A DNA stretch of 64,000 nt, taken from the NCBI GenBank assembly GCA_025054935.1, contig JANWZD010000002.1, positions 78,149-142,148 on the forward strand. The letters run 5' to 3'. The DNA comes from Dehalococcoidia bacterium (GTDB lineage Bacteria; Chloroflexota; Dehalococcoidia; SpSt-223). This document shows positions 332 to 12,073 of this stretch, piece by piece. A program made the position numbers and the translations under genes. The notes beneath the pieces were generated by a model that saw only the letters and a program-made list of their open reading frames with translations, had not been told where the DNA came from and made no database searches. Positions within the stretch are counted from its first letter, which is position 1, and each line of letters opens with the position of its first letter.

Positions 332-1222
332 TCAGCGGTGCGACCGCCGCCAACTGAGCGGGGTGACGCCGTGGATCCGGCGGAACTGCCGGATGAAGTA
401 CGTTGGGTCGGCGTAGCCGACACGCTCGCCGATCGTCGCGATGTCTTCGTCTGTTTCAACGAGCAAGCGGCGCGCTTCGATCATGCGGCGAGCGGTGATC
501 CATTCGAGCACCGTCCGCCCGGTTGCGTTTCGGATCGTGGTCGTCAGGTAGCCGGGCGTGCGGCCAACCGCGCGGGCAACGTCGACTAGCGAAATCGGCT
601 CGGCGAAATGATCGTTGATGTAATTGAGGACAGCCTCCACCACGGGGCGGCGCGGAGCGGCGTGGTTATCGAGAAGAGGAGAGACGAGCCGCGCTGCGTC
701 GATCAAGATGAGCTTGAGGAGCGCGTGGGCGGCCTCCCGGTAGCCTAGGCGCGGCAGCTCGAGTTCATGGGTGAGGCTTCGGAGGCGCGCTTCCCACCGC
801 GGACGGTCTTCCGGCGGGATGGAGAGGTAACTCAACTCAATGCCGGGCGGACGCGCGAAAGGCAGCAGAGCGGGGTTTTCGGGCCAGACGAGGGAATCAA
901 ACTCCAGCCGGCCGTCCCCAAGGGCGTCGGCAACAAAAAAGACAATCCAGCCCGCCGCCTGCTCTTCTTCGTAGCTATCGTGCACCTCGCCCGGAGCGAT
1001 GAGGAAGAGGTCGCCTGCTTGGGTCTCCCGCCGGACGGCGCCTGCCCGATGCCACCCGCCTCCCTGCTGGATGTAGACGAGCACAAAAAAGTCATGGACG
1101 TGGGGACCGAAATGGTCAAGCGGCCGCCCCTGCTCGAAGCGGGCGATGCCGAGTTGGGGCCGGTCCGGAGGCGGATAGACTGAGCGCGTGCGGTACGGCT
1201 TGGCAGGAACGTTGCGCAGCAT
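332..1222 (-). CDS. AraC-family transcriptional regulator
   Basis: A 296-residue AraC/XylS-type DNA-binding regulator. The N-terminal half is a cupin-like sensing domain, with HVHDFFVLVYI and GDLFLIAPGEVHDSY as the typical double-stranded beta-helix strands with conserved His. The C-terminal ~100 residues hold two helix-turn-helix motifs, ISLVDVARAVGRTPGYLT and IATIGERVGYADPTYFIRQF, and end in the family signature GVTPLSWRR. The ATG at 1222 is preferred because GAGG lies 4 nt upstream; the frame stays open to 1288 without a better site. It faces the divergent flavoprotein gene at 1341, which is a possible target, but no operator is evident. The effector is unknown; the cupin His pattern suggests a small organic ligand. 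Confidence 0.9.
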   Translation of the reverse strand: MLRNVPAKPYRTRSVYPPPDRPQLGIARFEQGRPLDHFGPHVHDFFVLVYIQQGGGWHRAGAVRRETQAGDLFLIAPGEVHDSYEEEQAAGWIVFFVADALGDGRLEFDSLVWPENPALLPFARPPGIELSYLSIPPEDRPRWEARLRSLTHELELPRLGYREAAHALLKLILIDAARLVSPLLDNHAAPRRPVVEAVLNYINDHFAEPISLVDVARAVGRTPGYLTTTIRNATGRTVLEWITARRMIEARRLLVETDEDIATIGERVGYADPTYFIRQFRRIHGVTPLSWRRSHR

Positions 1223-1340
1223 GCTGCCTCGCGCCGGTATCAGCCCTCCCCGCGCAATTCTACGCCAAATTTGCCCACCGCTTCGCAATTTCTGCGCCGA
1301 GCGCCGGCCGTGCTAGACTGCGCTCGCGGAGGAGACCCTC

Positions 1341-1898
1341 ATGGCAGACCGCCCCCCTTTGGACGCGGAGACGAAGGCGCGCGTCCGCGACGAGGCGATC
1401 GCGCTGATCGGCAGCCGCCGGATCGGCATTCTGGTCACGTATCCTCCGGGCGAGCCGTTCCCGCGGCTGAGAGCCATGGGTTTCGTTCACGACGGCTGGG
1501 TGTTCTACGTGTCAACGAGGCGCGGATGGCGGAAAGCAGCAGAGGTTGCCGCCAATCCTCATGTTAGTCTCCTCTTCTCTGACACGGCAAAACGCGCTGA
1601 CCATTTCATCCAGGTTGACTGCCGCGCCATCGAGGTGAGCGGCGGGGAGTTCGACCGCTGGCAGGAGAAGCGGTATCAGAAGGAGGGGGAGGCGCTCCGG
1701 CGTGCCACGGCGGGGATGACGCGTGACGACTGGGTCGGCTGGCGGCTCGAACCGCTCCGCGTGCGGATCAACGGACATATCAGCAGCGGACCATGGAGTG
1801 AAGCGCCCGTCGTCCTCTCCCGCCACGAACTCGGACTGCCGCCGCTCGGCAGGCCGCTCACGGGTCCAGCCGGCTCCGATGGAGAGCGGTCGGGATAA
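1341..1898 (+). CDS. Pyridoxamine 5'-phosphate oxidase-like flavoprotein
   Basis: A 185-residue protein of the split-barrel PNPOx-like superfamily, whose members bind FMN, F420 or heme. Family marks are [29 protein letters not shown] split over strands 1-2, then [28 protein letters not shown] (here in two blocks), the usual 'strand, K-x-x-x-l-x-x-NP-x-v-s-l-l' arrangement. It lacks the C-terminal region of true PdxH, so the substrate cannot be named. GGAGGAG stands just before the ATG, and TAGACT (1314-1319) could be the -10 box. The last 41 nt overlap the end of the convergent sugar-dehydrogenase-like gene, and the tail after about residue 150 is low in family similarity. Confidence 0.85.
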
Positions 1899-4800
1899 CG
1901 AGGAGCCGCTCGGCGAGCCGACCGGGCGGCTCCGGCAGCGCGAAGTTGACTGGCGGCTCAAGACCGACGTCGACGGCGGGGACAGCGCGCGGCGCTGGCT
2001 TCGAGTCGTTGAACTCAACCTCCTCGCTCTGCGCGGTTGTTCCTCCTCGGCCCACCGCTAGCTGCAGGGCGTAGGTCGTGTCGGTGAACGCCTCGACCTC
2101 AACCTGATAGGTCCCGGCGATGCTGGCGACGATCCGTCCCTCCTCGACGGCGGTGCCGTTGGCGTTGCGGACGAGGACGCGCCGGCCACGAGGATCCCAG
2201 AGGTACAGGTCGGCGTCGCCACTTGCGGGGGTGAGGCGGACTGAGAGCGTCTCGCCGACTTGGAGCGGTTGGCGGAACACCCGCACCTGGCCGCTGGCGA
2301 GTGTATCGGTCGGCGGGAGGTGGTTGAACTGCACGGCGGCGGGCCGGGTGGAAACATTGCCGACCGCATCGGCGAGGAAGACTTGAATCGTCCGCGCTCC
2401 TGCGGCCGGGGTGAGCGTGAATGTCAGAGTTGGGCGGTAAGAGAGCCACGGCGTCGTCTGCACCGGGACCCATGCTCCGTTGACGACACTGAGTGTCCGC
2501 TCGACGACCATCACCCAAGCGAGACCGCTTCCGCCGGCCGGGTCGTAGCCGGTCACGTCCAGCCGAGCAGTCCGGTCGGTCGTTGCGATGGCGCCACCGT
2601 TCACCGTGACGCTGCTGGCCACCGGCGGCCGCGTATCGCCGCCGGCACCGAGGACGGTGAAGGTGCGGGTGGCGTGGTTGTTGGCTGCGGAAAGGTCGGG
2701 AACGAGCCCGTCGGGATCAAGCTCGACTGTCACCGAGATCGGGCCGGTGCTCGGCCCGACGGCCCAGGTCGTCGAGACCGTAGCGCTCTTCGCCCGCGCC
2801 TCGAAAGTCGCGATCAGGTCGGCAATGACAGCGCCGCCGGCACCCGGCGCACCGCGGGTGAACCGCACCGGCAAAGCGACCGCGCCTCCCTCGTTCGGCC
2901 GCCGAACGGTGACGCCGAGCTCAACTTCGGTATTGGCGTAGATGCGGGCCGGCGAGGTCCACAGGTCGACGGTTTCAACGAAGAAGTCGTCTTGGACGGG
3001 CGCGACGGCGACGTAGGCATTCTCAACGGTGAGTAGCGGCGCTCCCGGGGTCGAGAGAACGAGGTCGTAAAAGCCGGGCGCAATGTTCGCCGGGACCGTC
3101 CCCAGCAGCCGCGTCGTGCCCGAAACGCGGAGCGCGCTCAACGCGACCGTCGCGCCGCTTTTGGCATGGAGGAGCACGGCGGCGGTCGAGGCGGAGAAGC
3201 CGGTCCCTTCGATCACGACCTCGACCGGTTCGGTCGTCACCCCTTGCGTTGGCCGAATGCGCGTGAATGTCGGCGCAACGGGCGTCCGGGTCGGCGTTGC
3301 TGTTCGGGTCGGCGTGCCGCCGCTCGGCGACGGCGTGCTGGTCGGCGTTGCGCTCGGCGTCGGGGTCCGTGTCGCTGTGGCGCTGGTCGGGGTTGAGGAC
3401 GGCGTCGCGGTGGCCGAGGGGACCGCGCTCGGTGTCGGCGTGCTGGTCGGGATGGCAGTTGGTGTTGGCGTGCTCGTCGAGGTGGCGGTTGGCGTCGGCG
3501 TTCTCGTCGGGGTGGCGGTTGGTGTCGGCGTGCTCGTCGGGGTGGCGGTCGGTGTCGGCGTTCTCGTCGGGGTAGCGGTCGGGGTCGGCGCGAGATACGT
3601 CGCCGTAATCGTGACCGGCGATGCGCCCACGAACACATCGTGGGTGGCGGCGTTGCCATTCGACCACGAACTGAAGGTGTAGGTCACTCCCCCGACGTTC
3701 GCGCTCGCCGGCGCAATGACCGAGGTGAGGGAGTTGACGATGACGGTTCGCGTAAACGGCGTCACGCTCGTCACGCCGGCGACCGACATCGCGATCCCCG
3801 GGGGCGACGACTCGATCGCCAGGGTGGTGGTGAGCGGAAAGAGCGTCACGAGTTCGGTGTGCTGCAAGCCGCCCGAGTCGGTCGCGGTCAGCCGAATGTC
3901 GAGCGAGGTTGGGTAGTCGTGGTTCGGCAACGCCACTTGGCCGCTCGCGCCGGTGAACGAGCCGAGCAGATGGGCGTGGCAGTCCTCGTGAACGGGACAA
4001 TGGTTCAGCACGATGGTCCACCGAAGAGCAGATGGCGGAAGCGTGCCGTCTTGGGCATCGGTTGCGGTGCCGCTGAAGGAGATCGTGTCGCCGACCCGCC
4101 AGCGAGTAGAAGAGCTGGGGGAGACGATGGCGGCAAGCGGCGGGGTATTGCCGGCGGCGATCGCAATCGGGGCGCTGATCGCCGAGAGGCCGCTCGGGTT
4201 GGTCACCCGAAGCCGCGCCGTGTAGTTCCCCACGGCCGTATAGGTGTAGGTCGTGGTGATGCCGACGCCGTCGTCATACTGTCCGTCGTTGTCAAGGTCC
4301 CACTCATAGGTCAGCTGATTGGAGGCGTAATAGGGGTCGGTCGAGCCCGCCCCACTGAAGGTGACCGTGAGCGGCGCAGGGCCGTTCGTGGGCGTAGCGA
4401 TCGCGACCGCCGAGGGTGCGCCCGGCACAAAGCGGACCCGGTGGATAGCGCCATACTGGCCGCAGCGGTCTTGGTTGCAGCCGATGTCGAGGTAGTAGAG
4501 GTAGCCGTCTGGCCCGATCTTCAGCGAGACGGGCGACGGGGCGCGGCCGACGAAGCGGGAGACCTTGGTGGGGTCGGGCAGCCCATTCGTCGCTTTCATC
4601 ACCCAAATGCACTGGCGCGCGTAATCGGCAAAGAAGAGGGCGTTGGCGAAGTCGGGCGGATAGGGCGTGGTCGCGCCGGCGAAGGCGAGGCCGGTGATTG
4701 CGGAGCCCGGGCCGGGAAGCGTTGGCGGGCAGTTGTCCCCATCGACGACGTGGGCGTGGTGGTTGTAGCTGAAATACGGCGGAACGGCGATGCCGGCCGC

Positions 4801-6003
4801 ATAGAGCGTGGAGCAGATCGTGAACCCGATCATCGACCAGCCATCGGTCGGCGCCGCGCCTTCGTAGCATGGCCAGCCGAAGTTCCAGCGCGGCGTGACG
4901 ACAGGCGAGGTGAGGGCAGGCGCAGTCGGGGTGATGATCCGGTTGATCTCTTCCCAGGTGCCCCAGCCGACATCGCCGACCCACAGCTCCGATGTGCCCG
5001 GCCGGAAGGTCATGCGGAGCGGCTGCCGAAAGCCGTAGGCGATGACCCGGCTGGTATTCGCGAACGGATTGGCTGGGTCGTAGAGCGGGTTGCCGGGCAC
5101 GCCGGCGCCGCTATTTGGATCGATCCGGATGACGGTCCCGCCCAACCCGAGGGGATCGCCGGGGGTCCAAGCATCTTGAGCGCGCAGCGCGCCGCCTTCG
5201 GCGGTCGGCGGGGTCATCTCGCCCCCTACGCCGCCGGGGGGGTCGCCGCAGGGATTGCGCGGCTGGCCGCTTGCGGGCGAGGCGCCGTACTGGCCGTAGT
5301 CGATGGTCAGGTAGCCTGCGCCATCGCCGCCGCTGACGTAGAGCATGCCGTCTGGACCGAAGAGCACGGTGCCGACGCTGTGCGTGCCGAACTGCGTGCA
5401 CCAGTCGGTGATCAGGTCCACTTTGTTCACCAACTGCGGATAGGTCGAGAGCTGAGTGGCAGTAAAACGGGCAAGCTTGCCGAGGACAGTGCATCCCGGC
5501 TCTTCGGGCACGCCAGGGGGCCAGGGGCACGTGAAATCGGGCCAGAGGGGCACCGTCGTCGTGAACGGCGCGGAGTTGTAGGTGTAGAGCAGGTAGACGT
5601 AGGGCGTGGTGGGGAAGTTCGGATGGAGCGCAAGAGAGAGGAGGCCGCGATCCTCCTGGTCGTGCACCTCGGCGCTGATGTCGAGAGCGTAGGCGAAGCT
5701 GGACGAATTGATGGACGGAAACGCCTTGACGATCCCCCACTTCTCGGAAACCCAGACGGAGCCGTCGTTGCCGAAGGCGAAATCGGTCGGGAAGTACAGG
5801 TTGTCGATCACGATCTCATCGACAAAGCCGGGGGGGACGAGCGGCGACGCGGGAGGGGGCGCGACAGCCTGCGTGCGCAGCGGCACGCTGGGGGCGGCGA
5901 CGGCGGCAGGGGGAGCGCCACGAGGAAAGAGACCAGCGACCAGCACGGCGCCGAGCGTCAGCAGCCGGAGTGCAGTATCGAGAGCGCGTCGTCGAAAACT
6001 CAT
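1858..6003 (-). CDS. Secreted multidomain glucose/sorbosone dehydrogenase-like protein
   Basis: A 1381-residue secreted protein. It starts at ATG 6003 with a clear signal peptide (basic MSFRRRALD, then a Leu/Ala/Val core). Residues ~60-525 form a PQQ-dependent sugar dehydrogenase-type beta-propeller (GSDH): [53 protein letters not shown] and NFGWPCYEG. Then follow a PKD domain (~529-620, [14 protein letters not shown]), further Ig-like and repeat domains (to ~795), a Thr/Pro decapeptide linker (~802-905), an IPT/TIG-like domain, a CARDB-like domain (~1005-1100), another Ig-like domain and a C-terminal PPC domain (~1235-1330, [17 protein letters not shown]). Such proteins oxidise or bind sugars outside the cell; quinone dependence is inferred. 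The frame is open to 6207, but the signal peptide fixes the start. The 3' end overlaps the PNPOx-like gene by 41 nt. Confidence 0.88.
3440..3589 (-). repeat. 30-bp tandem repeat coding a Thr/Pro decapeptide linker
   Basis: About five imperfect 30-bp units in the coding strand of the sugar-dehydrogenase-like gene encode the decapeptide TPTPTATPT(R/S). Less regular units continue to about 3290. The repeat is a flexible extracellular spacer between domains. On the opposite strand it reads as [10 protein letters not shown], which creates a long false ORF. Confidence 0.85.
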
Positions 6004-6394
6004 CAGGATCCAATCGGCAGATGTCGCTCTCGCCGCGACGGTGCCGCGGTTCGATCCTACCGAGGTATCGTGAGGAACACATCCTCCATTTTGCTGTTGA
6101 GCGATCGTCCCTTTGGCGTAGGGAACCAAACGGCTCGTGAACAACGCCCTCTCTTCGCGCAGCGATGCTCTCGCTCGCGCAAAAGAGCACCAAAGTAAAG
6201 ACAGCATCGCGTTTGCCCCGAAACCGCGAGACGGCGCAGCCGCCGCAACATCCGGCGGGACGTGAGGCGTGGCGCGTCCCGCAGCTGAGAGAAGATTGGA
6301 GCCGAAGCGGCAATGTCAGTATTGACATTTTTGGCCGAGTGTGCTTCACTATGGGGCAGGACTGGCCCGTATTCGATGTGCTGGAGGAGGAGCG
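6004..6394. other. Divergent intergenic region (391 nt)
   Basis: This lies between the divergent sugar-dehydrogenase-like gene (minus) and the ABM-Rieske operon (plus). It holds the ATGT-N8-ACAT operator and the promoter described next. The left two thirds show no convincing gene; short frames there lack ribosome binding sites and family similarity. Confidence 0.6.
6312..6350 (+). promoter_or_regulatory. Promoter of the ABM-Rieske operon with PadR-type operator
   Basis: AATGTCA-GTAT-TGACATT (6312-6329) is a perfect 7-4-7 inverted repeat. It contains ATGT (6313-6316), eight bases, then ACAT (6325-6328), the published PadR-family pattern ATGT-N8-ACAT. The right arm overlaps a consensus -35 box TTGACA (6322-6327). 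A weak -10 (TTCACT, 6345-6350) follows after 17 nt. A repressor bound here would block RNA polymerase. The only PadR gene in the window lies four genes downstream at 7789, so control of this operon by that PadR is the natural inference. Confidence 0.7.
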
Positions 6395-7081
6395 ATGTAC
6401 GCTGTCACCAACCATCTCTTCCCGAAAGAGGAGTTCTTCGACCGGCTGATCTCGGGGTTCGCCTCTGACCGCGGCCCGGCGATCACCGACAAGTGGAACG
6501 CGACCCGCTTTGAGCTGCGCGGCCCGCTTTCGGGCAACGAGTTCATCAGCACCTCGGTGTGGGAGAGCGCGGACGCGTTCGACGCATGGCGCAACAGCCA
6601 GGACATTCAGGTCTCGCACTCCAATGTCAATTACGAGATGTACTCCCGTCGGGCGATGCTCTCCTTCCACGACGTGCTGATGAATGCCGAGCCGGGTCGG
6701 GCGCCGGTGGCAGGCAAGCCGGCGCGCTATCGCCGGATTGGGGTCGGCGCGTTTGAGTCGCTGATCTACTTCTCGCCGAAGCCGGAGCATGCCGAGGACG
6801 TTATCAAGGCGCTTGAGGCGGAGGGCGCGCCGACGGCGCCGGGCCTGCTCTGGTGGGAAGTGTGGAAGGATGTCAAGGGCAACCGCTGGTGGAATATCAC
6901 CTACTGGGAGAGCCGCGAGGCCTACGAAGCGGCAAAGGCCGCGGGTGTGCCCCAGCTGTCGCTGCCGGGCGATCCCAACTGGTATGAGGGGCAGCCGGAG
7001 GAGGCGCTCTACATCATGGAACTGGAGCGGCTTCCGGGGTTCACCAAGACCGAGCGCCGTGAGGTGGTCGCGCGTGCCTAA
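6395..7081 (+). CDS. Tandem ABM-domain (antibiotic biosynthesis monooxygenase-like) protein
   Basis: A 228-residue protein made of two dimeric alpha/beta-barrel (ABM-like) halves. In the first, NEFISTSVWESADAFDAWRN is the typical 'strand, W-x-s-x-e-a-f-x-x-W' pattern. In the second, ESLIYFSPKPEHAEDVIKAL and WWNITYWESREAYEAA repeat it. Single ABM domains act as dimers in heme degradation, quinone monooxygenation or small-molecule binding; a fused pair could form one complete barrel dimer. The ATG is preceded by GGAGGAGGA. It is the first gene of an operon with a Rieske ferredoxin (8-nt overlap) and a small protein, so an oxygenase role supplied with electrons by the Rieske protein is plausible but unproven. 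Confidence 0.8.
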   Translation: MYAVTNHLFPKEEFFDRLISGFASDRGPAITDKWNATRFELRGPLSGNEFISTSVWESADAFDAWRNSQDIQVSHSNVNYEMYSRRAMLSFHDVLMNAEPGRAPVAGKPARYRRIGVGAFESLIYFSPKPEHAEDVIKALEAEGAPTAPGLLWWEVWKDVKGNRWWNITYWESREAYEAAKAAGVPQLSLPGDPNWYEGQPEEALYIMELERLPGFTKTERREVVARA

Positions 7082-7406
7082 CTTTATCCCGGTGGCGAAC
7101 GCTGCCGACCTGAAGGACGGTGACATCATCATCGCCACGGTCGGCAGCGCCTCGGTCGTGATCACGCGTGTCGAGGGCGAGCTCTACGCCCTCGACAACG
7201 TCTGCAGCCACGATCAGTCGCCGTTTGATGAAGCGACGGTCGAGGGGTATGAGCTATGCTGTCCGCGGCACGAAGGCCGGTTTGATGTCCGCTCCGGCAA
7301 GGCGACCCGCTTTCCTGCCGTCTGGCCGATCAGTCGCTGGCCGGTCAAGGAAGAGGCGGGGCGCATCTGGGTCGGTGACACGCCGCTGAACTCAGGAGCA
7401 GGCTGA
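7074..7406 (+). CDS. Rieske [2Fe-2S] ferredoxin
   Basis: A 110-residue Rieske protein of the oxygenase-ferredoxin type. It has both ligand boxes, CSHDQ and CPRHEG, 17-18 residues apart, giving the Cys/His pairs that hold the 2Fe-2S cluster. There is no signal peptide, membrane helix or oxygenase domain, so it is a soluble electron carrier, as in aromatic-ring dioxygenase or nitrite-reductase small-subunit families. The GTG at 7074 overlaps the end of the ABM gene by 8 nt, and GAGG lies 9 nt upstream. No ferredoxin reductase is encoded nearby. Confidence 0.9.
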   Translation: MPNFIPVANAADLKDGDIIIATVGSASVVITRVEGELYALDNVCSHDQSPFDEATVEGYELCCPRHEGRFDVRSGKATRFPAVWPISRWPVKEEAGRIWVGDTPLNSGAG

Positions 7407-7747
7407 TGGCATCTCGTCAGCAGGAAGCAGAAGAGACGTTTCGCACGCACCCGAACGTCGCCGTGCGCGAAGAGGTGCTGCGCTGGTTCACCGCACCGCC
7501 TGATCAAGCGCCAGATCGCGAGCGCATCCCAGTCGAGTTGCTCGCCGAGTCGGCGACGAACGAGTCGAACTGGACATTTCGTCCCAAGATCATCCGCGCT
7601 ATGGGCAGGGCGGCAATCGATAACCCGAACGACCGCGCTGCCCTTATTGCAGCGCTGGAGGGGCTCGTGAACGACCGCACCGTCCTCGAGCGTGACCGCG
7701 CGGTCGTCCTTGAGGTGCTGGACGAGGTGCGGCGGGCGGTGGGTTAA
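7406..7747 (+). CDS. Small conserved-looking protein of the ABM-Rieske operon
   Basis: A 113-residue, charged, mostly helical cytoplasmic protein with no motif I recognise. Its ATG shares one base with the stop of the Rieske gene (TGATG), a sign of translational coupling. Codon use matches its neighbours. The segment from about residue 60 (IIRAMGRAAIDNPNDRAALI) has a helical-repeat feel, but not enough to call HEAT repeats. The position suggests a partner or maturation factor for the ABM/Rieske pair. Confidence 0.75.
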   Translation: MASRQQEAEETFRTHPNVAVREEVLRWFTAPPDQAPDRERIPVELLAESATNESNWTFRPKIIRAMGRAAIDNPNDRAALIAALEGLVNDRTVLERDRAVVLEVLDEVRRAVG

Positions 7748-7775
7748 CCGCACCAAATGGTGGGGCGGCCTCGTG

Positions 7776-7781
7776 TACACT
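7776..7781 (+). promoter_or_regulatory. -10 box for a leaderless padR mRNA
   Basis: TACACT ends 7 nt before the ATG of the PadR gene, so transcription would start at or next to the start codon. There is no Shine-Dalgarno sequence. The box lies inside the palindrome GTGTACAC (7773-7780 region), a possible site for autoregulation. Confidence 0.55.
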
Positions 7782-7788
7782 TGGGACT

Positions 7789-8355
7789 ATGAACAGCGGG
7801 GCTCGCCATCGCCAATTGATGATCTTAGGCATGCTTCAGTACCGCCCGATGTACGGGCATCAGATCAAGGAGGCGATCGATCAGCACATGATGGTCGTCT
7901 CGGACCTGAAGCGCGCCAACCTGTACTACCTCCTTGAGCAGCTGACCAGCCGCGGCTATCTCGAAGTGCGGACCGAAACATTGGAGGGCGCGACTGGCCC
8001 GGTCGAGCGCGAGATTTACTATCTCACGCCCGCCGGGCGCGCCTATTTCGATGAATTGCTGCGCGAGGTGCTGTCGTCGTTTGAGTCGCTGCGCCAGCCG
8101 GTCGACGTTGCGATGTTCTTTCTGCCGCACCTTCCCCGCGATCAAGCGATTGCGCTCCTCGCCGACCGGCGGGCCAAGGTCGAGGCGAGTTTCGCCGAAG
8201 TGCGCGAGCAACTCGCTACGAGCCCCCACAAGGGCGAGTGGCACGAGCTCACCGCCGACCATCTGATTTCCCTCTACCAGCTCGAGCTCGACTGGCTCGA
8301 CCGCGCGATCGCGAAGCTCGAAGCGAGCAGCGAACTGCAGCCGACGACACCCTAG
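7789..8355 (+). CDS. PadR-family transcriptional regulator
   Basis: A 188-residue winged-helix repressor of the PadR family. The N-terminal domain has the family core: LMILGMLQYRPMYGHQIKEAI, LKRANLYYLLEQLTSRGYLE and REIYYLTPAGRAYFDELL (shown here as separate blocks). A long C-terminal helical region (~100-185) provides dimerisation, as in the longer PadR subfamily. Known members sense phenolic acids or drugs and release their operators on binding. The gene follows the ABM-Rieske operon by 41 nt on the same strand, and that operon carries a perfect ATGT-N8-ACAT site. The ATG has no Shine-Dalgarno but follows a -10 box by 7 nt. Confidence 0.92.
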   Translation: MNSGARHRQLMILGMLQYRPMYGHQIKEAIDQHMMVVSDLKRANLYYLLEQLTSRGYLEVRTETLEGATGPVEREIYYLTPAGRAYFDELLREVLSSFESLRQPVDVAMFFLPHLPRDQAIALLADRRAKVEASFAEVREQLATSPHKGEWHELTADHLISLYQLELDWLDRAIAKLEASSELQPTTP

Positions 8356-11046: not shown

Positions 11047-11379
11047 TTATCCGGCCGCGCTCCGTTCGGGAAGGTCGTCGATGACGATTTCCAAGTATTC
11101 GCGCGGGTAGCTCTGATACGGCTTGAGGTGCTGCCCCATCTCGAGAATGCGCTCTTGGTAGCCGGGGAACTGGGTCAGTTCTTCGTAGGCGGCGATGGAG
11201 TCAAAATGGCGAATGTGGGTGAAATGCGTTCGGTCTTCGAGTGAGCGGAGGAGCTGGCGGCCGCGAAAACCAGGGTGCTGACGCATGAAATCAAGGAAGA
11301 GCCGCTGCAGCCGCAGATACTCGTCGGCATGAAAGCCGTCATCGAGCGTCCACGCCTGACTGACGACGAGCACTCCCAT
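11047..11379 (-). CDS. Single ABM-domain protein
   Basis: A 110-residue dimeric alpha/beta-barrel protein. Marks are MGVLVVSQAWTL at the start, FLDFMRQHPGFRGRQLLRS (the 'P-G-f-x-x-x-x-l' turn) and HFDSIAAYEELTQFPGYQ. ATG 11379 is chosen because GGAGG lies 5 nt upstream; the frame extends to 11403. This is one of three separate ABM genes in the window. Function could be monooxygenase-like or simply small-molecule binding; no heme or active-site residue can be assigned. Confidence 0.75.
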   Translation of the reverse strand: MGVLVVSQAWTLDDGFHADEYLRLQRLFLDFMRQHPGFRGRQLLRSLEDRTHFTHIRHFDSIAAYEELTQFPGYQERILEMGQHLKPYQSYPREYLEIVIDDLPERSAAG

Positions 11380-12073
11380 TGTGCCTCCTTGCCTCAAGAT
11401 CACACGCTTATACCACTGATTGGCGATAGCCTGCTGGGCATGGCGGCGCGATTACGCAGTTCGCGCCGCGCGTGCCGGTCGAACGGGTCGCCCTTGGCAG
11501 CATTGTGGGGGACTGGGCGACGGTGATCGTCTTTCCGCCGCCGGAGGTGACGGACCCGTCGGTTGTCGTCCGCCCCCTCACCGGGACCGAGACAGCGGTC
11601 GCCGGGCTGGGAGCGGCATTCTGCCGGGCGATATCCCAGGGACCCGTCAGCGACGCTCTTCTAGTCGAACCTGTCTGGCGGCGCGGCGGGCCGACGAGGC
11701 GGTCGCGAGCATCCCCGCACGCGGCAGGAGGAAGGGCGCGCGCTCGCGCTCGAAATCCCCTGGACGCGAGGGAACCATCGCCGCGGGCGATGTCGTGACC
11801 GTGACGGGTCCTAGCAGCTTGACCCTACGCCGCCTGGAGGTACTGTCCTCGTCCCTTCGCGATACCAGTCGCCTCCTCAGGCCAGTTCGGCGCGGGCGGG
11901 GCGCAGCGCCTGCCCTTTCATGCGGTCGGCCCTGAGCAGGCGACGGCCGCGCTCGCCCGCGGGAGGGGACCCGCCGCCGGCGCGGACAGCGCAGGTTCAG
12001 CTGACGGTCAAGTAACCGGCTGCCGTCCCAAGCTCCTTGCGCGGACGAGCTCTGGGCGCGGGCGCGCCGCCGC
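11380..12073. other. 694-nt stretch without an intact gene
   Basis: Several plus-strand frames show short protein-like pieces (for example GDWATVIVFPPPEV near 11510 and GDVVTVTGPSSLTLRRLEV near 11800), but they lie in different frames and none has a start with a ribosome binding site. This could be a decayed gene or chance. It adjoins the broken beta-helix gene, so the 11.4-12.9 kb segment may be a degenerating island. Confidence 0.4.

Follow-up and report, generated by a model that had tools for sequence, protein, structure and literature searches.

What does a palindrome in front of a small ABM-Rieske operon control, and which protein is likely to read it? The locus lies in the 64,000-nucleotide stretch of a Dehalococcoidia bacterium genome that was analysed here and is called the window. 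A tandem ABM-domain protein, a Rieske ferredoxin and a small protein are encoded next to a padR gene, and a sequence-only reading had taken the palindrome for a PadR-type operator of an oxygenase-type module.

A palindrome overlaps the promoter of the ABM-Rieske operon

The perfect inverted repeat AATGTCA-GTAT-TGACATT (O1) occupies positions 6312-6329, without strand assignment, and its core, TGTCA-N4-TGACA, spans 6314-6327. The canonical PadR target pattern is ATGT-N8-ACAT (PMC3506622, PMC5428041). An exact copy of this pattern is present at 6313-6328, the sole match within the window, where 0.10 would be expected by shuffling. The -35 box TTGACA (6322-6327, plus strand) is located inside the right arm of O1. 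It is followed after 17 bp by a -10-like hexamer, TTCACT (6345-6350, plus strand), which is assigned by consensus match only; the 17-bp spacing recurs at related promoters. The sequence-only reading had thus correctly recognised a perfect repeat holding the PadR pattern over a consensus -35 box, and the palindrome proved to be longer than the pattern.

Expected counts were calculated with a first-order Markov model of this genome. The 18-mer comprising the full palindrome (AATGTCA-N4-TGACATT) is expected 0.001 times per genome, and the 16-mer ATGTCA-N4-TGACAT was observed 3 times against 0.03 expected. The core occurs 6 times in the genome, compared with 0.73 expected. ATGT-N8-ACAT alone is found at 20 places in the 3.57-Mb genome, where about 7 are expected, and a bare match to it is weak evidence taken alone.

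A degenerate second operator (O2), GGGCAGGACTGGCC, is positioned at 6354-6367 (no strand assigned), exactly 40 bp after O1. O2 is worn in this genome (G000), and its counterparts in the two other genus members, G001 and G002, are near-perfect, GGTCAGGACTGACA and TGTCAGGACTGACA, at the identical 40-bp offset. The upstream copy over the -35 box of the G001 ABM operon is itself worn, TGTCAGGATTGACT, with the box reading TTGACT, and the O2 copy there is intact. By its pattern, its promoter position and its recurrence at related promoters, O1 is a putative PadR-type operator.

Gene content of the operon and the adjoining padR

The first gene (6395-7081, plus strand) encodes the tandem ABM protein of 228 aa, which matches PF03992 in two stretches (4e-17). 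It overlaps by 8 nt with the gene of the Rieske [2Fe-2S] ferredoxin (7074-7406, plus strand; 110 aa, GTG start; PF00355, 6e-16). The cluster ligands C44, H46, C63, and H66 of the ferredoxin are present (C-x-H-x16-C-x2-H), and its best NCBIfam matches are dioxygenase ferredoxins, every one below cut-off. A further overlap of 1 nt leads to orf3 (7406-7747, plus strand), which encodes a small all-helical HEAT-like protein of 113 aa with six helices (AlphaFold pLDDT 76). The two overlaps support the operon structure well and imply co-translation. No ferredoxin reductase gene is found inside the operon.

The padR gene (7789-8355, plus strand; 188 aa) starts 41 bp after orf3, behind its own -10-like box TACACT (7776-7781, plus strand), and TGTACACT is conserved there in three genomes. 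Its product belongs to the large PadR subfamily and matches PF03551 (1e-10) and PF10400 (Vir_act_alpha_C, 3e-8), both over cut-off. The padR promoter contains no copy of the palindrome. Profile matches and overlaps agree with the operon order proposed earlier, from the tandem ABM gene to padR. The range given for it, 6312-7788, marks a real feature but stops too early, as padR ends at 8355.

The four-gene order ABM-Rieske-orf3-padR is identical in both other sequenced genus members, which are MAGs labelled Dehalococcoidia bacterium KatS3mg060 and Chloroflexi bacterium HOT.Cluster.3. The MAG names suggest hot-spring organisms.

Matching operators recur at four promoters in the genus

The earlier reading treated the palindrome as a single site. 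The site is real, but it belongs to a group of operators that extends to other parts of the genome, which had been missed. The core is conserved at four promoters, those of the window operon, a second tandem-ABM gene (on contig C14; 42% identical to the window ABM), a ChuX/HutX-like gene, and a CydDC-like ABC pair. The first three promoters bear the core in all three genomes (G000, G001, and G002). The CydDC-like pair has the site in both genomes that contain the pair (this genome and G001); the pair was not found in G002, the assembly of which is 80% complete. At the promoters of the ABM and ChuX-type genes, the -35 box is supplied by the right arm of the site, and at the cydDC promoter the site is located just 3' of a TATACT -10 box. 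Such positions are the layout of a promoter-covering repressor.

The 16-mer occurs 7 times in the 3 genus genomes, compared with a mean of 0.15 per genome and a maximum of 2 in 237 class genomes outside the genus. When relatives were searched for the same gene order and site, as the sequence-only reading had proposed, both were kept in the genus, and homologous operons do not lack the site. Conservation is shallow, because every target belongs to the same genus, represented by 3 genomes. Of the six core sites in this genome, two are probably due to chance or not conserved. The one at C6:56687 falls within the coding frame of a CaiB-type CoA-transferase; it was judged chance and rejected as an operator. 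The core match at C12:102141 (L048 4142-4155) follows a -10-like box and precedes the gene of a 151-aa His-containing membrane protein; this site is not kept in G002.

The N-terminal ABM domain carries an IsdG-type triad

Alignment of the N-terminal ABM domain assigns N6, W65, and H75 to the Asn-Trp-His triad of the IsdG/MhuD heme oxygenases. The tryptophan and histidine are invariant in all six ABM copies, and the asparagine in all five copies with an N-terminus in the alignment; the N-terminus of the G002 ABM gene is missing because of a frame break near codon 22. This break (L017, around 7160-7290) reflects either a sequencing error or a damaged gene. The spacing of the triad matches N6/W66/H76 of IsdI and N7/W66/H75 of MhuD, in which W66 is the triad tryptophan. 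The triad of IsdI and the residues Asn7 and His75 of MhuD have been reported (PMC4835899 and PMC6018153, respectively). Read off the sequence, the corresponding positions of the C-terminal ABM half are not W and H. The N-terminal domain is thus a putative catalytic IsdG-type heme monooxygenase.

Among solved structures, the ABM sequence matches mainly MhuD, HmoB, IsdG, and IsdI, with weak scores (E about 1e-3). Against the HmuQ model NF053649 it reaches 22.5 bits, compared with a cut-off of 130, and the NCBIfam equivalog cut-offs are not reached, so we filed the protein as IsdG-like rather than as an ortholog of IsdG. Its AlphaFold model is of low quality (pLDDT 43), and the Foldseek matches obtained with it reflect only the ABM fold in general and do not indicate specificity for heme.

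IsdG, IsdI, and MhuD, ABM proteins of PF03992 with a near-identically spaced triad, are homodimers, whereas the window protein, a putative heme-degrading enzyme, is a fusion of two domains co-transcribed with a Rieske ferredoxin. HmoB and Listeria Isd-LmHde are likewise fusions of two ferredoxin-like domains in tandem, of which one half is active and the other degenerate. The C-terminal half is the active one in those proteins (PMC4835899, PMC6018153), whereas the triad is in the N-terminal half here. A search of genome contigs found the tandem ABM protein, outside its own genome, only in the two other genus members, and a 400-genome phylum sample contained no match at 1e-10 outside its own genome. 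A separate single-domain ABM protein (PF03992, 7e-6), unrelated to the operator, is encoded at 11050-11403 on the minus strand of the window.

ChuX-like and CydDC-like genes share the operator

The ChuX/HutX-like gene (137 aa; site at C2:76311) is located 1.8 kb to the left of the window. Its product matches PF06228 (2e-6) with about 28 bits, narrowly over the gathering score of 25, and the match holds in all three orthologs. It also matches PDB 3fm2, described as HemS-related (5e-9). These features resemble the cytosolic heme carriers ChuX and HutX, from which the protein differs by its distance and by the 329-aa gene behind it. No such gene was found outside its own genome in the 400-genome phylum sample. 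The 329-aa protein follows in all three genomes (L014 6802-7788; L050 and L051) and matches no Pfam or NCBIfam family. In G000 and G002, the gene immediately ahead of the ChuX-like one encodes a 307-aa protein (L014 5290-6210; L051 2687-3610). It has a weak CbiX-like match (PF01903), below cut-off, and is possibly tetrapyrrole-related.

The CydDC-like ABC pair on contig C10 is divergent from a CtaG-like gene. The second gene of the pair scores 369 bits with the CydC model, over the cut-off of 329, and the best match of the first is CydD, with 412 bits against a cut-off of 435. Cytochrome bd is the usual client of CydDC. A search for cytochrome bd subunit I showed it to be absent from all three genus genomes, so the pair would need another role; it could export thiols or another substrate. 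The pair resembles the CydDC heme transporter in its two fused ABC half-transporters and its CydC-type membrane domain, for which the PDB matches are CydC only, and differs from it in lacking cytochrome bd in the same genomes and in having a palindromic operator at the promoter. The histidine in TM2 of the membrane domain aligns with a histidine of PDB 8ipq, which we take to be H85 of E. coli CydC. In E. coli CydC, H85 is a heme ligand (PMC10374445).

The adjoining PadR is the best candidate regulator

Two PadR-family genes are present in the genome. The window padR adjoins the ABM operon in all three genomes, and the second PadR gene has no such site nearby. Because it is one of only two and has the same neighbour throughout, the window PadR is the leading candidate for the repressor, on good circumstantial evidence. 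The connection between this PadR and this site, already suggested by the sequence-only reading, is strengthened by these findings and stays a proposed one. The protein combines the winged-helix PF03551 with a large helical C-terminal domain, the architecture of PadR subfamily 1, and its best solved relative is B. subtilis PadR (PDB 5x11, 5.8e-6), with which it shares a length of about 180 aa and, as a candidate target, ATGT-N8-ACAT. It would differ from members of this subfamily in that its candidate targets look heme-related and are not phenolic-acid or drug genes, and in that its own promoter is without the site. LmrR, unlike the window PadR, has its operator at the promoter of its own gene. 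In five other genera, more distant relatives of PadR (E 1e-13 to 1e-24) have neither TGTCA-N4-TGACA nor ATGT-N8-ACAT in the stretches examined, so these relatives neither support nor refute the link. In a literature search covering mostly papers outside subscription access, we found no report of a PadR heme sensor or of a PadR-IsdG link.

The palindrome itself might be a coincidence or a terminator/attenuator-like element, as the 20 genome places with ATGT-N8-ACAT would allow, but the longer 16- and 18-mers greatly exceed their chance expectation, and relatives have the core at the same promoters. A chance palindrome was rejected on genus conservation and the expected counts, and we regard this explanation as highly improbable. 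It is rather unlikely that a real, heme-related regulon is repressed by another protein, with PadR merely adjoining the operon and controlling something else. Genus-wide co-occurrence cannot tell conserved regulators apart, the site is missing from the padR promoter, and G000 and G002 both have a LysR gene two genes upstream of the chuX site. However, the LysR gene is not adjacent to this site in G001, and LysR was rejected as the regulator. The LysR box is the odd T-N11-A, and the palindrome, even-length with a 4-bp spacer, does not fit it; the spacing suits the PadR pattern, and it is PadR that adjoins the operon in every genome.

Other functions were also considered for the regulated genes. 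The sequence-only reading favoured an oxygenase-type module responding to aromatic or phenolic ligands, and the ABM and Rieske proteins could act together as an oxygenase on aromatic, quinone or polyketide-like compounds, with such ligands as inducers through PadR. Anthrone and quinol oxygenases are among the ABM-domain proteins, the Foldseek matches of the weak model also include antibiotic-biosynthesis types, the dioxygenase ferredoxins lead the below-cut-off matches of the Rieske protein, and the founding PadR proteins sense phenolic acids. Yet the operon holds no oxygenase, reductase or aromatic-pathway gene, the operator is common to the ChuX/HutX-like gene and the CydDC-like pair, and the full N-W-H heme triad is invariant wherever the N-terminus is present. 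The co-regulated genes and the triad point to heme instead, and we consider the aromatic function quite unlikely. A redox or thiol-stress regulon, in which CydDC exports a cysteine/glutathione-type reductant and the ABM and Rieske proteins serve to detoxify reactive electrophiles, would agree with the thiol export assigned to CydDC (PMC4785604) and with a glyoxal-response study that reportedly involves an ABM-domain protein (PMC12274486). In more recent structural studies, however, CydDC is assigned to heme (PMC10374445, PMC10691846), and the ChuX/HutX-like gene and the catalytic triad would be left unexplained; we give this reading only a slim chance.

A putative heme-homeostasis regulon

With somewhat better than even confidence, we propose that the palindrome is the operator of a putative heme-homeostasis regulon for degradation and efflux, repressed by PadR and with the Rieske protein as the likely electron donor. 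The ChuX and CydDC targets together with the conserved IsdG-type triad lead to the heme reading. Each of these lines is of moderate strength, and combined they point to heme. Since matching sites precede genes of heme-degrading, heme-carrier, and heme-transporter type, the palindrome has the appearance of a control switch for a heme-handling system not described before.

A repressor acting as a dimer, in all likelihood the adjoining PadR, would bind TGTCA-N4-TGACA over the -35 box, or after the -10 box at cydDC, and block RNA polymerase. Its release would be triggered by a signal, for which heme in excess or a molecule derived from heme is the simplest candidate. The operon would then supply a fused two-domain IsdG-type heme monooxygenase with a catalytic N-terminal domain, a Rieske ferredoxin passing electrons to it, and the small helical orf3 protein as a helper. 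Elsewhere in the genome, the same switch would control a second oxygenase, the ChuX/HutX-like heme carrier for buffering, and the CydDC-like heme pump for export, so that surplus heme would be degraded, buffered, and exported. That a PadR-family heme sensor represses such a complete heme-disposal regulon, with an N-terminal-active fused monooxygenase, a dedicated Rieske donor, and CydDC reassigned to heme export, is a tentative proposal that we hold with less than even confidence.

In HatRT of C. difficile and FhtR of E. faecalis, a transcriptional regulator is likewise reported to govern heme transport and detoxification (PMC6303022, PMC7858072). The candidate sensor here is instead of the PadR family, and the output would include degradation, a ChuX-like carrier, and CydDC. 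IsdG-type enzymes and heme-responsive repressor regulons are the closest kinds of system, from which the proposed one differs in the candidate regulator family, the fused enzyme with its putative active half first, the coupled Rieske protein, and the CydDC output. According to a review (PMC6018153), most bacterial heme-degrading enzymes have no known natural electron donor, and the likely IsdG-type enzyme with its translationally linked Rieske ferredoxin offers a direct candidate pair. If PadR is the regulator, its family would join the known types of heme-responsive repressor. The CydDC pair without cytochrome bd would provide a test case for CydDC as a heme exporter per se.

Neighbouring genes

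Upstream of the operon in the window, a gene for an AraC-type regulator (335-1288, minus strand) is divergent from a PNPOx-like split-barrel flavoprotein-type gene (1341-1895, plus strand). The minus strand at 1861-6003 encodes a large secreted-type protein with a GSDH domain, a PKD domain, and a long Thr-Pro repeat linker. A methyltransferase-like family recurs at L017 5916-7097, L046 1064-2242, and L076 4468-5598, all on the minus strand. The methyltransferase-like copy of G002 is divergent from the ABM operon, and its longest reading frame begins within the operator.
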